Assembly (NCBI GenBank): GCA_003566635.1
Contig: PXCK01000103.1
Span: forward strand, 1-40,845
DNA from: Balneolia bacterium
GTDB taxonomy: Bacteria > Bacteroidota > Rhodothermia > Balneolales > Cyclonatronaceae
DNA: 40,845 nucleotides
Direction of reading: 5' to 3'
Below are positions 373 through 32,377 of the stretch, in pieces; within the stretch, counting starts at the first letter, position 1; every line of letters begins with the position of its first letter. The position numbers and the translations under genes were made by a program. The notes below the pieces were generated by a model. That model did no database searches, was not told the origin of the DNA, and saw only the letters and a list, made by a program, of their open reading frames with translations.

Positions 373-530
373 CGCCATACTTTAGAATGGTTAGAATATA
401 AATTGATGGTCAGTCAAAAAGTGGTCGTGAGTTCTTGGCGTCTTAAAGACAAATTAATAGATTAACCTTAACCAACCACTCCAAAATAAAATCCATTACT
501 CATTATTTTGTTGAAATGCATCTAAATTGT

Positions 531-540
531 TGCTATTTTA
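531..540 (+). promoter_or_regulatory. Promoter-like box TGCTATTTTA upstream of secG
   Basis: TGCTATTTTA ends 32 bases before the preferred secG ATG at 572. The same box occurs at nearly the same distance before dapA (4259-4268) and, as TGCTATTTTT, before hemB (32378-32387). It resembles an extended -10 element (TGn-TATTTT). The promoter role is inferred from this repetition. Confidence 0.45.
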
Positions 541-571
541 CTTAACTACAATTCAAAACAGTTTTTCTATT

Positions 572-946
572 ATGTTATATATTTTAACTATGGTTCTCAT
601 CTCGATCATCTGCTTAGTTTTGATCGTGATAATTTTACTCCAAAGTGGTCAAGGTGGCGGTTTGTCCGGCGGTATTGCAGGTAATGCCGGTGGTGGCAGT
701 GGAATGGTTGGTGCGCGTAGAACTGCCGACTTTCTTTCAAAATCTACCTCTGTATTAGGTGCCGTGTTTCTTGCACTTTGTGTTCTTGCCAATTTCTTTA
801 TCGATGGTTCAACTCAGGAACAAAGTACAATACAACGTACCGGTGTTGAAGTTCCACTTCAGCCGAGTGAATTAGAACTACCGGCTCAGCAACAACCTGC
901 TATTCCACAGCAGCCTCCTGTTGAGAACAACGATAATGATGAGTAA
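572..946 (+). CDS. secG: SecG, preprotein translocase subunit
   Basis: SecG is the small accessory subunit of the SecYEG channel in the inner membrane and assists SecA-driven export. The product (124 residues from this start) has two membrane segments, MLYILTMVLISIICLVLIVI and later STSVLGAVFLALCVLANFFI. Between them lies the glycine-rich loop with LLQSGQGGGLSGG, which is typical of the family. A Q/P-rich hydrophilic tail ends in an acidic run (ENNDNDE). The open frame extends upstream to a TTG at 527, but I chose ATG 572 because SecG proteins start directly at the first membrane segment and the extra 15 residues look like leader sequence. A terminator follows the stop, so it is probably monocistronic. 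Confidence 0.92.
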   Translation: MLYILTMVLISIICLVLIVIILLQSGQGGGLSGGIAGNAGGGSGMVGARRTADFLSKSTSVLGAVFLALCVLANFFIDGSTQEQSTIQRTGVEVPLQPSELELPAQQQPAIPQQPPVENNDNDE

Positions 947-968
947 TCATATCTGAGTTTCGATTTTA

Positions 969-995
969 AACCCTGCCCCGAGCAGGGTTTTTTGT
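969..995 (+). terminator. Terminator of secG
   Basis: An 8-bp stem, AACCCTGC (969-976) with GCAGGGTT (982-989), has a 5-base loop and is followed by a T-run, 22 bases past the secG stop. Confidence 0.85.
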
Positions 996-1095: not shown

Positions 1096-1327
1096 TAACC
1101 CGGATTATTCACGAAAAAATGAAATTTAAATCTTATACTATTAAAAATATTGTATTTAGAAAAATACTACACACACTCAAATTTGGGTGTGGTTTAAATG
1201 CTGCAAAATTTCCATGTTAGCTTCGTTGAAGTTGAAAAAGTCATGCCAGGGTACTAAGGTACCCTTCCGCTGATTTTCCACCTTCGCCTTGCTACCAAGA
1301 AAATTTTTTGGTGAATAATCCGGGTTA
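1096..1327 (+). repeat. MITE-like element, copy A1 (intact, perfect TIRs)
   Basis: A 232-bp non-coding unit is bounded by perfect 17-bp terminal inverted repeats: TAACCCGGATTATTCAC at 1096-1112 and its exact reverse complement at 1311-1327. Allowing one mismatch the arms extend to 25 bp (1096-1120 with 1303-1327). The outermost TA on each side could be a TA target duplication around ACCCGG…CCGGGT, as in Tc1/IS630-type elements. The interior has a short hairpin (GGGTAC-TAAG-GTACCC). Two related copies lie at 7874-8042 (inverted, truncated) and 31867-32122. It carries no transposase, so movement would have to be in trans. Confidence 0.8.
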
Positions 1328-1375
1328 CCCGCTTAGTGTTATGAACGGGAACAGATAAAAATAAATGAGGAAACT

Positions 1376-4177
1376 ATGAGTGCAGTCTGGAAAGGCATAG
1401 ACGTTAAAGCCGAAGGTGAAGGTATAACCGCATCCTTAAGTGAACAGGTAAATTTACTTGGAGAATTATTAGGGCATGCTGTTCAGGAACAAGCCGGAGA
1501 TGAAATCTTTAAACTGGTTGATTCACTTCGGGAAAACTGTAAGAAGGCATACAAAAGTGACGACACCGTGCATAGGGATGCTGCCCAAAAGACAATTGAG
1601 TCCTTAAGTACTTACGAAATAGATTGGTTATTACGAGCCTATACAGCTTTTTTTCACATGGTGAATAAGGCCGAGCAGCAGGAGATTACCAGAATTAATC
1701 GGGAGCGTGAGTTAAAGGCATCTGTACAAAACCCAAGGGCAGAATCAATTTTTGATGCTGTTTCTCATCTCAAAAGCCAAAATTACACGTATGAAGAAGT
1801 ACTGGAGATCGTTAATTCTATCGATATTCAGCCAACGCTCACGGCTCACCCAACGGAAGCTCGTCGAAGAACTGTGCTACATATACAAAGCAGAATAGCT
1901 CAAGCACTCTCAGTTTTAGGTAACGAAGAGCTGACCGCACGTGAACGTGAAGATCAAATCGTAGATTTGTACCGCCAGATTAAACTTGTTTTAAATACCG
2001 ATGACGTTCGCAGTTCCAAGTTAAGTGTAGAAGATGAAATCAAAAATGGATTGTACTTTTTTGCCAATACCATCTTTCATGTATTGCCTCGCATTTATGA
2101 TGATTTATCTACAGCTCTGGAAAGTTACTATGGGCAAAAGCCCGAACTCCCGGCCTTTTTAAGGTACAGGTCATGGATTGGGGGCGACCGAGATGGAAAC
2201 CCAAATGTTACTCCCGCTGTAACAGAGAAAGCTCTTAAGATGCAGCAAGAAGCCATTGTGGGTTTGTATCTGGAATCGTTGGAAGAATTGAGACGTGAGT
2301 TGAGTATCTCAAACAGGCAGATTGCAACGCCTAAAGTTATGGCAGATTCCATACAGAGAGACAAAGAGTTTGTGGAACTTTCGGAAGAGAAGAAAACGAA
2401 TTACAAGCACGAACCTTACAGATATAGAATTGTTCAGATAAAGCTTAAACTACAAAAAGCGTTTCTGAACGATAATCCTACTGCTTTAAATCTTCAATCC
2501 GATTTCCATTACTCTGCCGATGATTTCCTTCAGGATGTTGTCGAAATTCGGGATAGTTTGATTGAGCAAGGTTTTCACCAACTGGCAAAAGAAGGAAATC
2601 TTGCCAAACTGCTCACTCAAATTCGTTCTTTCGGACTGTCGTTTGCGGCTTTAGATATACGTCAACATAGTGCTGTGTTTGAGCGAACAGTTACAGAAAT
2701 GTTCAACCATGCTGCAATAGTTGATGATTATTCCCAACTTACAGAAGAAGAAAAAATAAGAGTCATCTGTGAAGAATTGGAAAATCCCAGACCAATGCTT
2801 CCTACAGGAACAGCCTTATCTGAACCTGCTGAAAATTTAATTCAGGTTTTTACCATCATTCGGAAAGCGTTAAAGATTGACAAGTTGTCAATTGGTAGTT
2901 TGATCGTAAGTATGACCCACAGCATCAGCGATTTGCTCGAAGTATTAGTAATTGCGAAAGAAGCGGGATTGTGGAAGCTTAAAAATGGTACTGTTGATTC
3001 CAAAGTTGATGTGGTGCCACTTTTTGAAACTATCGAAGACCTTGAAAAGAGTCATTTGCTCATGCAGCAATTATTTGATAATCCTGTATATCGCCTTCAA
3101 TTGGAAGCGCGCGGTATGTTTCAGGAAATTATGCTTGGTTACTCCGATAGTAACAAAGACGGAGGATACATCATGGCAAATTGGGCGCTTCAAAAAGCTC
3201 AGGAAAAACTCTCAAAAACCTGTCGGGATAATGAAGTTGATTTCCGGTTGTTTCATGGTCGGGGTGGTTCGGTTGGTCGTGGAGGGGGACGAGCAAATCA
3301 GGCTATGCTTGCTTTGCCGGCTGTGTGTCATAGCGGAAAAGTTCGCTTCACCGAGCAAGGAGAGGTTATTTCATTCAGATATGCAAACCGTAATATTGCG
3401 CACAGGCATTTGGAGCAAATTGCGAACGCTATGTTACGCGCGACTGCACTTGGTTATAAGTACAAGGAAAATCAACCCGAAAAAAGCGATGCAAAGCAGT
3501 TTGAGTTAATGCAGAAAATGGCCGAAAGTTCTATGAATACCTACAGGCAACTGATAGACGATCCGGAGTTTTGGCCCTGGTATGCAACGGTAACACCCAT
3601 CGAACATATATCCCGATTGCCAATTGCATCACGGCCGGTTTCCCGCGCAAACGGGAAAGAAGTCGATTTCGACAGTTTACGAGCGATTCCATGGGTATTT
3701 GCCTGGACACAAATTCGCTATAATATACCCGGTTGGTACGGATGCGGAACCGCACTTGATGATGCCATCAACAACGGAAATCTCGAACTCTTTCAAAAAT
3801 GGTATAAAAGCTGGCCGTTTTTCAAAGTATTGATTGAAAACGCACAAAGAGAAATGGCGCGGAGCAATTTAATTATTACGCCTTACTATAACGATCATCA
3901 ATCCGAATCTAAAATTCCCGGACTGATAGAAACCGAGTTTCAAAAGGCGGAAAAGGCAATACTTGCCATAACGGGGCAGAAAAATCTGCTTGATATGAAT
4001 CCGGTTATTCAAAAATCCATCCGTTTGCGAAATCCGTACACCGATGTGTTAAACCTCATGCAAGCGGAACTCATGCATCGCTGGAAAGTTCAGGATAGAG
4101 AATTACAACCGGAATTAAGGTCACTCTTATTCAGCAGCATTAATGGACTTGCAGCGGCCATGCAAAGTACGGGATGA
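1376..4177 (+). CDS. ppc: Phosphoenolpyruvate carboxylase
   Basis: PEP carboxylase converts PEP and bicarbonate to oxaloacetate and phosphate, replenishing the TCA cycle in the cytoplasm. At 933 residues it is slightly longer than the E. coli enzyme (883). The family signatures are present: LTAHPTEARRR with catalytic His158, GGDRDGNPNVT, LGYSDSNKDGG with Lys594, and the flexible glycine-rich loop FHGRGGSVGRGGG starting at Phe626. The C-terminus is MQSTG where many family members end QNTG, a tail involved in the active site and in allosteric inhibition; the N-to-S change is conservative but notable. The start ATG is preceded by GAGG at a suitable distance. The MITE-like element ends 48 bases upstream. 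It is followed by dapA after 124 bases, with a promoter-like box between, so the two are probably transcribed separately. Confidence 0.97.
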   Translation: MSAVWKGIDVKAEGEGITASLSEQVNLLGELLGHAVQEQAGDEIFKLVDSLRENCKKAYKSDDTVHRDAAQKTIESLSTYEIDWLLRAYTAFFHMVNKAEQQEITRINRERELKASVQNPRAESIFDAVSHLKSQNYTYEEVLEIVNSIDIQPTLTAHPTEARRRTVLHIQSRIAQALSVLGNEELTAREREDQIVDLYRQIKLVLNTDDVRSSKLSVEDEIKNGLYFFANTIFHVLPRIYDDLSTALESYYGQKPELPAFLRYRSWIGGDRDGNPNVTPAVTEKALKMQQEAIVGLYLESLEELRRELSISNRQIATPKVMADSIQRDKEFVELSEEKKTNYKHEPYRYRIVQIKLKLQKAFLNDNPTALNLQSDFHYSADDFLQDVVEIRDSLIEQGFHQLAKEGNLAKLLTQIRSFGLSFAALDIRQHSAVFERTVTEMFNHAAIVDDYSQLTEEEKIRVICEELENPRPMLPTGTALSEPAENLIQVFTIIRKALKIDKLSIGSLIVSMTHSISDLLEVLVIAKEAGLWKLKNGTVDSKVDVVPLFETIEDLEKSHLLMQQLFDNPVYRLQLEARGMFQEIMLGYSDSNKDGGYIMANWALQKAQEKLSKTCRDNEVDFRLFHGRGGSVGRGGGRANQAMLALPAVCHSGKVRFTEQGEVISFRYANRNIAHRHLEQIANAMLRATALGYKYKENQPEKSDAKQFELMQKMAESSMNTYRQLIDDPEFWPWYATVTPIEHISRLPIASRPVSRANGKEVDFDSLRAIPWVFAWTQIRYNIPGWYGCGTALDDAINNGNLELFQKWYKSWPFFKVLIENAQREMARSNLIITPYYNDHQSESKIPGLIETEFQKAEKAILAITGQKNLLDMNPVIQKSIRLRNPYTDVLNLMQAELMHRWKVQDRELQPELRSLLFSSINGLAAAMQSTG

Positions 4178-7712: not shown

Positions 7713-7780
7713 GAAATGTTCACAGGAAGATCAAATTTAAGGTATAAACCTAAGTTCGATTATTAACAATTTTTTTTTAT

Positions 7781-7824
7781 CACAGAGGTCACTGAGTAAA
7801 GCGCGGAGTTACACAGAGCTTGCC
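7781..7824 (+). repeat. 44-bp dispersed repeat, copy B1
   Basis: The sequence starts CACAGAGGTCACTGAG and ends ACACAGAGCTTGCC. It matches 32208-32251 (opposite strand) at 43 of 44 positions and 17411-17454 at 35 of 44. Its GAG/GGAG triplets recur about every 9-12 bases. Related flank with 32273-32289 (CCTAAGTTCGAT at 7749-7760) suggests the duplicated unit is longer than 44 bp. Confidence 0.8.
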
Positions 7825-7873
7825 TAACTCCCTGCAGGCTTTATGATTCAAATCTCTACTAGACCTTATGTTT

Positions 7874-8042
7874 TTTTTCATCTTCAACGCAGCTAACGGG
7901 GAATAGCACTTCGTGGGAATCGCTTCACTCGGTGCGCAGTATTTGGTACACCCAAATTTGAGTGAGTGTGGTATTTCTCTATTTACAATATTTTTAAACA
8001 TATAAGATTTAAATTTCATGATTTCGTAAATAATCCGGGTTA
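7874..8042 (-). repeat. MITE-like element, copy A2 (inverted, truncated)
   Basis: On the minus strand it begins TAACCCGGATTATTTACG, one base off the 17-bp terminal repeat of copy A1, and follows copies A1 and A3 through the motif GCTGCGTTGAAGATGAAAAA. Homology then stops at about 7874, so the far terminal repeat is missing. Repeat B1 lies 50 bases beyond the break. Confidence 0.75.
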
Positions 8043-8100
8043 ATAACTTTGTGAAGAATTCGATGTAAATGTGTTGCTTGCTCGTAAGTCCTTTGGCATT

Positions 8101-8144
8101 TTACCACTGATTGAGCAGATTTTCACAGATTACCGCAGATTAAT
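8101..8144 (+). repeat. 10-bp-periodic repeat, copy C1 (three units)
   Basis: After TTACCACTGATTGA come three successive decamers built on CAGAT: GCAGATTTTC, ACAGATTACC and GCAGATTAAT. The related copy C2 at 17153-17186 has only two units, the middle one being absent. Confidence 0.65.
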
Positions 8145-8403
8145 TTCTCCAAAGTTAAGAAGTCTATTATCAAGAAGTAGGTAGGCATCGGATGTTTACA
8201 TAGTAGTAGTATCCATAATAGCTAAGCAATTAGTACAATTCAAATTAATTGGTAAAATGAATCAGCAATAATAGTTTGGCATCTAAAAAAATCCTGACTT
8301 CCGAACTTATTTATGTGACTGTTCTTCTTATATTTAATATCTATATGTTAGATTTCTAAAGATGTATTAATTGGGTGTTAATACGATAAACTCACGAAAA
8401 AAT

Positions 8404-16978: not shown

Positions 16979-17152
16979 GTATAAATTTTTAGAGTCAGAG
17001 ATAACTTAGAAAATAAGAAAATATGCTTTCACATTAACGATTTCATTTTTAAGCGTTGAGATTGAGAGCAGGTTAGTTAAACATGTTTGCATACTTTATA
17101 AAACAATTATTTAGAATTTTATATATCCTGAGTTCATTAACACTTTTGAAAA

Positions 17153-17186
17153 TTACCACTGATTAAGCAGATAACCGCAGATTAAT
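17153..17186 (+). repeat. 10-bp-periodic repeat, copy C2 (two units)
   Basis: TTACCACTGATTAAGCAGAT followed by a CCGCAGATTAAT end matches copy C1 at 8101-8144, except that the middle CAGAT decamer is missing. Confidence 0.65.
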
Positions 17187-17410
17187 CACTCTGAGTCGGC
17201 TGCACAGTAGGTAGACTACAGAATAGCCCTGGAGAATAATTTGTGTAGTTAATTTGGTTCAAGGTGGATTCATTTTGATAAAGGAATAACTATAATTGAA
17301 GGCTATGTAAGCAGAATTCTGTCTGATTGTGAATCAACCCGGAGGCTAGCACTTCAAAAATAGCTCCCTATGAAATTACCTGATTGTGACTTGTAACCTC
17401 TACTTTTAAA

Positions 17411-31866: not shown

Positions 31867-32122
31867 ACCCGAATTATTCACGAAAGTGTGAAATTTGAAT
31901 CTTATACTATAGAAAATATTGTATATAGAAAAATACCCCACTCACTTAATTTTGGGTGTGGTTAAAATGCTGCACTCCGAGCGAAGCGATTCCCGCGAAG
32001 CGAAATTCCATGCTAGCTGCGTTGAAGATGAAAAAGTCATGCTCAGGGTACTAAGGTACCTTTCCGCTGATTTTCCACCTTCGCCTTGTTACCAAGAAAA
32101 TTTTTTGGTGAATAATCCGGGT
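31867..32122 (+). repeat. MITE-like element, copy A3
   Basis: This 256-bp unit starts ACCCGAATTATTCAC (31867-31881) and ends GTGAATAATCCGGGT (32108-32122). These are imperfect inverted ends with one mismatch, matching those of copy A1. Internal sequence follows A1 throughout but includes about 25 extra bases around GAGCGAAGCGATTCCCGCG, which A2 also has, so A1 probably lost them. No TA duplication is visible at its ends. Confidence 0.8.
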
Positions 32123-32207
32123 GAATATGGCAGACAGGTTTCGCAGATTTTTTTTCATTTGAAATTGGTAGGCTAATTCCAACCATTCACATCCTGCCTT
32201 GTCTTTA

Positions 32208-32251
32208 GGCAAGCTCTGTGTAACTCGGCGCTTTACTCAGTGACCTCTGTG
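32208..32251 (-). repeat. 44-bp dispersed repeat, copy B3
   Basis: Read on the minus strand it equals copy B1 (7781-7824) at 43 of 44 positions. Similarity resumes in the flank (AATCGAACTCAGG, 32273-32285, versus AATCGAACTTAGG beside B1). It lies downstream of A3 in the same order and orientation as B1 relative to A2. Confidence 0.8.
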
Positions 32252-32377
32252 TTAAAAAATAGAGGTGATTAAAATCGAACTCAGGTTAAAAAACTATGAG
32301 TTTCAGTGGCTCTGCGGATCATAACTAATATCTATTGGATATTGAATTTCCATGTCTTTTCAAACAACCCAAATAAA

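Follow-up and report, generated by a model that had tools for sequence, protein, structure and literature searches.

A probable MITE family of the Balneolales with a covarying internal hairpin

Analysis of the DNA upstream of ppc in a 40,845-nucleotide stretch from a Balneolia bacterium (the window) revealed an element that is very probably a MITE, a non-autonomous DNA transposon of the cut-and-paste type, whose family has so far been seen in the Balneolales alone. It is short and non-coding, with terminal repeats and a target-site duplication of fixed length; its copies are dispersed, and element-free sites are evident from gene order. A hairpin inside the element is kept by compensating changes across genera. 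The features discussed below are collected in Table 1.

Table 1. Features of the window, with strand and supporting evidence
Feature	Coordinates	Strand	Evidence or comment
secG, SecG domain ORF	527–946	+	PF03840, 2.4e-18
Terminator-like hairpin after secG	968–990	+	
Target-site duplication, left copy TTAA	1095–1098	.	4-bp offset agreement
MITE proper, CCCG...CGGG	1099–1324	+	226 bp; paired ends, 4-bp duplication outside
Left terminal inverted repeat CCCGGATTATTCAC	1099–1112	+	Exact reverse complement of 1311–1324
Small internal hairpin CACACTCAAATTTGGGTGTG	1172–1191	+	MFE fold; both-side changes in 2/4 alignment-level pairs
Conserved core hairpin, four stems and internal loops	1205–1307	.	Covariation; model match 1201–1324, 136 bits
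Right terminal inverted repeat GTGAATAATCCGGG	1311–1324	+	Pairs with 1099–1112
Target-site duplication, right copy TTAC	1325–1328	.	One base differs from TTAA
ppc, phosphoenolpyruvate carboxylase	1376–4177	+	PF00311, 3e-268
Second copy, truncated	7870–8039	-	Left end and part of core; model match 13 bits, weak
Third copy, 254 bp, with 28-nt module	31868–32121	+	Covariance model match 128 bits

Ends, target duplication and copies of the element

The original prediction placed 17-bp inverted repeats at 1096–1112 and 1311–1327 around a core of 232 bp. The arms are indeed exact reverse complements, and the pairing extends to 25 bp at 96%. Three of the 17 bases, however, belong to the target site, leaving a true repeat of 14 bp, and the 232 bp are not a core between the arms but the whole element together with flanking target bases. 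These boundaries, 1099–1324 with 14-bp ends, are drawn because, in 106 elements drawn from several genomes, the left flank matches the right over exactly four bases (0.85, 0.85, 0.91 and 0.86). With shuffled pairing, the outer two positions agreed at 0.51 and 0.50, and agreement remained high at the TA itself, which is nearly invariant. The duplication therefore reaches beyond the TA to which targeting had been ascribed: it is 4 bp long and of fixed length, with the form NTAN and a preference for TTAA. Since the bases outside TA are duplicated too, descent from an IS630/mariner-type element with a 2-bp TA duplication was rejected. Exact 4-bp duplications flank 39 of the 57 full-length copies in the window's genome, compared with 14.6 by shuffling and a maximum of 22 in 1000 shuffles. 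The commonest are TTAA (21), ATAA/TTAT (9) and CTAA/TTAG (5); the copy upstream of ppc has one mismatch.

Searching the window with the 17-mer at up to three mismatches gave five matches where 0.12 were expected, a number that no shuffle reached. The three copies anticipated there are present, although one is truncated and one contains an extra module. A genome-wide search with the terminal repeat bore out the prediction of a MITE-like element with many copies per genome: in the 2.85 Mb of this assembly (246 contigs), the inner 13-mer of the end occurs exactly 87 times, against zero for the reversed pattern, and the paired full-length copies number 57. Among the matches listed by BLAST with the element in the same genome, at least about 40 are copies, at 83–100% identity. 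Two other genomes hold 170 and 169 exact ends, with controls of 0. Compared with the consensus of the 57, the copy upstream of ppc ranks tenth, at 96.5% identity; the ORF list contains no frame of 100 aa or more inside its 226 bp.

Two departures from the common form were observed. In 254-bp variants from several genera, a roughly 28-nt module (CGAGCGAAGCGATTCCCGCG.., at 31974–32001 in the window and also at loci L146, L267 and L272) occupies the identical internal place. Genome G040 has at least four mini-elements of 84 bp (C5:46348–46431, C7:102370–102453, C12:1675–1758 and C14:4737–4820), which retain both MITE ends and, from the spacing of those ends, lack most of the inside. The mini-elements suggest that movement requires nothing beyond the ends.

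Distribution and the internal hairpin

Matches at the DNA level were found in 12 of 60 relatives and 9 of 27 genera, and a scan of genome contigs with the conserved right end gave Balneolaceae, Balneolales and Fodinibius records among the matches listed. A covariance model built on the right half of the element, applied to the phylum with strict filters, was positive in 14 of 297 genomes. All 14 belong to the order of the window's genome, where the family is present in several families; it was not found outside the Balneolales among these 297 genomes. Six end-pattern matches in viral contigs had neither a partner end nor MITE inner sequence and were set aside as chance. The terminal repeat differs among genomes (CCCGG/A/C-ATTATTCAC, CCTGCATTTCTCAC and others); the inner architecture stays the same.

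Beyond the terminal repeats, the right half of the element contains four nested stems, between which lie internal loops, TGCGTT/GCCTT and TGCTCA/TTCCGC, that are nearly invariant in the family. The idea that this half is the end of a transposase gene was dropped because its stems covary and it lacks a continuing long ORF. In 26 diverse copies, both sides have changed in 28 of the 52 pairs of the whole proposed structure, compared with a shuffled mean of 13.2, and cells with both-side changes number 76 compared with 22.7; neither value was reached in any of 500 shuffles, although the structure was read off one sequence and the shuffles ignore relatedness, so that the figures lean toward it. Sliding the partners by one to three columns abolishes the signal. 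Helix 4 shows the pattern most clearly: different genera have GTTAGC/GCTAAC, GCTGGC/GCCAGC, GTGAGC/GCTCAC, CTCAGC/GCTGAG and GTTGAC/GTCAAC. The hairpin is thus kept by compensating changes across genera, and we infer selection on it as a folded nucleic acid. The fold energy lies well below that of shuffles (z ~ −8.3, either strand), in part because of the terminal repeats. Cells with G-U number 27 and those with A-C 37, so that neither strand shows an enrichment of wobble pairs and there is no sign of selection on the RNA of one strand.

Covariation could also arise free of selection, through templated correction of imperfect palindromes, in which one arm is copied onto the other at replication while the element is otherwise a neutral passenger. 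We give this an appreciable, though minor, chance of being right. It fits the absence of strand asymmetry and the way in which changes restore both arms together; such correction should nevertheless erase asymmetric internal loops and leave perfect stems, whereas the loops persist across genera.

A function for the core hairpin, as an RNA or as folded DNA bound by protein, of benefit to the element or its host is also conceivable, if rather unlikely; the terminal repeats would then be merely its means of spread. The combination of compensating stem changes with constant internal loops speaks for such a function, as do the fold energy (z ~ −8 on either strand) and the single copies that the covariance model detects in other genera, in seven genomes of high quality. 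The single copies inspected, however, lie at unrelated places, the excess of wobble pairs to be expected from selection on a one-strand RNA is absent, and Rfam has no match for the element at the gathering score, a separate search giving chance-level matches only and none that is credible.

For a MITE whose core is selected as a folded nucleic acid, the simplest reading is that the transcript of either strand, or extruded DNA, would fold, which might make insertions at the 3′ ends of genes tolerable or help the element to move. More specifically, a protein might recognise the folded core, as RNA or DNA, through the conserved internal loops and so, in addition to the terminal repeats, keep the element mobile or tolerated across the order without a resident autonomous parent, a proposal that we regard as doubtful.

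Insertion context and the secG–ppc locus

Genes were called on both sides of 119 distinct elements, none of which lies inside an ORF. By simple ORF calls, 46 of them are in convergent, 59 in tandem and 14 in divergent gaps, which comprise 12.8%, 58.7% and 28.5% of the control intergenic bases, respectively (p ~1e-12 and ~1e-5). Insertions avoid genes and divergent promoters and favour convergent gaps; orientation has no clear bias (83:67 and 45:30). In 20 of 147 elements, the stop codon of a gene falls no more than 4 bp from the edge of the element. TAA and TAG both fit within NTAN, which makes the stop codon itself a frequent target, and because the duplication restores the stop, insertions of this kind are harmless; stop codons thus provide a simple route to harmless insertion.

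Empty sites in relatives, a further expectation, were supported by gene order and not base for base, both at secG–ppc and in an orthologous region that holds an element in genome G001 and is free in G000. The shared neighbourhood apparent between contigs C32 of G000 and C147 of G001 proved to be a free site, since the G000 end is false and lies inside a gene. At several other loci of G000, G001 and G007, the apparent shared neighbours are paralogues with a common C-terminal domain and not orthologues. That domain looks like a secretion sorting domain, and an assignment of these neighbours as Rhs genes was wrong.

In the window, the element sits between secG and ppc, downstream of the terminator-like hairpin, and the right arm as originally drawn ends 48 bases from the ppc ATG (1376), as predicted. 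If secG terminates at 968–990, ppc needs a promoter between ~990 and 1375. The element fills most of this interval, and no promoter-like match was found in either. A MITE lies upstream of ppc in three genera (L266, L267 and L272), in both orientations. It is found just upstream of ppc in G001 and G007, with the opposite orientation relative to ppc in G001; in G004, G006, G008 and G009, the 700 bases preceding the ppc frame show none. Each occupied site has the subfamily of its own genome and different target bases, and the copies are therefore likely, from their sequences, to be separate insertions. It is very unlikely that the copy has been selected as a putative promoter or 5′ leader for ppc: the presence of copies in this gap in three genera, in both orientations, favours the idea, but the element is absent there in four other genomes of the family, promoter-like sequence is absent from it and, on a rough count, neighbourhoods shared elsewhere are not clearly above chance. 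Because such neighbourhoods are few among the other loci, we do not claim selection at ppc.

Mobilisation and relation to known elements

From the ends and the duplication, a putative DDE transposase would act on the MITE in trans, binding and cutting its ends, which would join a target whose strands had been cut four bases apart around a central TA. An autonomous element with identical ends was sought and not found within four transposase families in draft genomes: among the matches to PF13701, PF13546, PF01609 and PF05598 (DDE_Tnp_1_4, DDE_5, DDE_Tnp_1 and DUF772) examined in 10–13 genomes, none has CCCGNATTATTCAC ends on both sides, a result that covers those matches whose loci were retrieved, in assemblies that break at repeats. 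Unpaired ends in G040 and G007 and the genome-contig loci likewise yielded no autonomous parent. At G007 loci L199 and L201, a MITE end lies near a transposase with no second end beyond it, and the two were judged chance neighbours. Mobilisation by an IS1380-family element of the window's genome (contig C2) is most improbable, for although its ends (CCCAAATCCGTCA) also start with CCC, a comparison by eye finds agreement with the MITE end at only 8 of their first 14 bases. The copies of this C2 element are cut by contig ends and did not reveal its target duplication. Derivation from the IS1380 family was rejected because the ends found there, CCCAAATCCGTCA, CCTAAATCCGTGAG and CCTAAAATCCGCAG, do not match; the C2 and MITE ends are at most distantly related.

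Several known repeats resemble the Balneolales element. ERIC/RU-1, Correia/NEMIS and RUP are also short (100–200 bp), non-coding and often intergenic, with terminal inverted repeats and long stem-loops; they have a terminal TA motif and are thought to be moved in trans, for RUP by the proposed mobiliser IS630-Spn1 (PMC2229807). Unlike these, the Balneolales element is longer, makes a 4-bp NTAN duplication and has an internal hairpin, separate from the terminal repeats, that covaries across genera. MITEAba12 shares terminal repeats, target duplications, many copies and family-wide spread, but it is 113 bp long with 9-bp duplications, a proposed parent IS (ISAba12) and weak predicted internal structure (PMC6382973). 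The Caulobacter CIR repeats are likewise dispersed and intergenic, and their RNA fold is described as conserved from one genus to another; their MITE features are partial, and sequence, host and fold are different (PMC2229807). A MITE of Porphyromonas gingivalis, also from a Bacteroidetes genome, contains a minisatellite (PMC4596501), whereas no tandem array was seen in the Balneolales element. Searches of Rfam, of plasmid and phage records and of the literature did not turn up the family. We conclude that it is a new family of a known kind, the MITEs, with an order-wide covarying core as its unusual feature. An abundant family of mobile elements is now documented in the Balneolales, and its core is a clean example from nature with which to ask why the secondary structure of a passenger transposon is retained as the sequence drifts.

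Other repeats were seen as well. In G000, at C139:4972–5112 (L120), a MITE end is followed immediately by the inserted end of an IS1380-family element, which is what old repeats would be expected to show. The window has another dispersed repeat (AGGCAAGCTCTGTGTAACTC.GCGCTTTACTCAGTGACCTCTGTG) at 7760–7827 (-) and 32205–32272 (+), near the truncated and the 254-bp MITE copies, and its two copies are 88% identical. A further short repeat, of the form ACCACTGATTAAGCAGATTTTCACAGATTA...CAGATTAATC, is present at 8091–8149 and 17143–17191.
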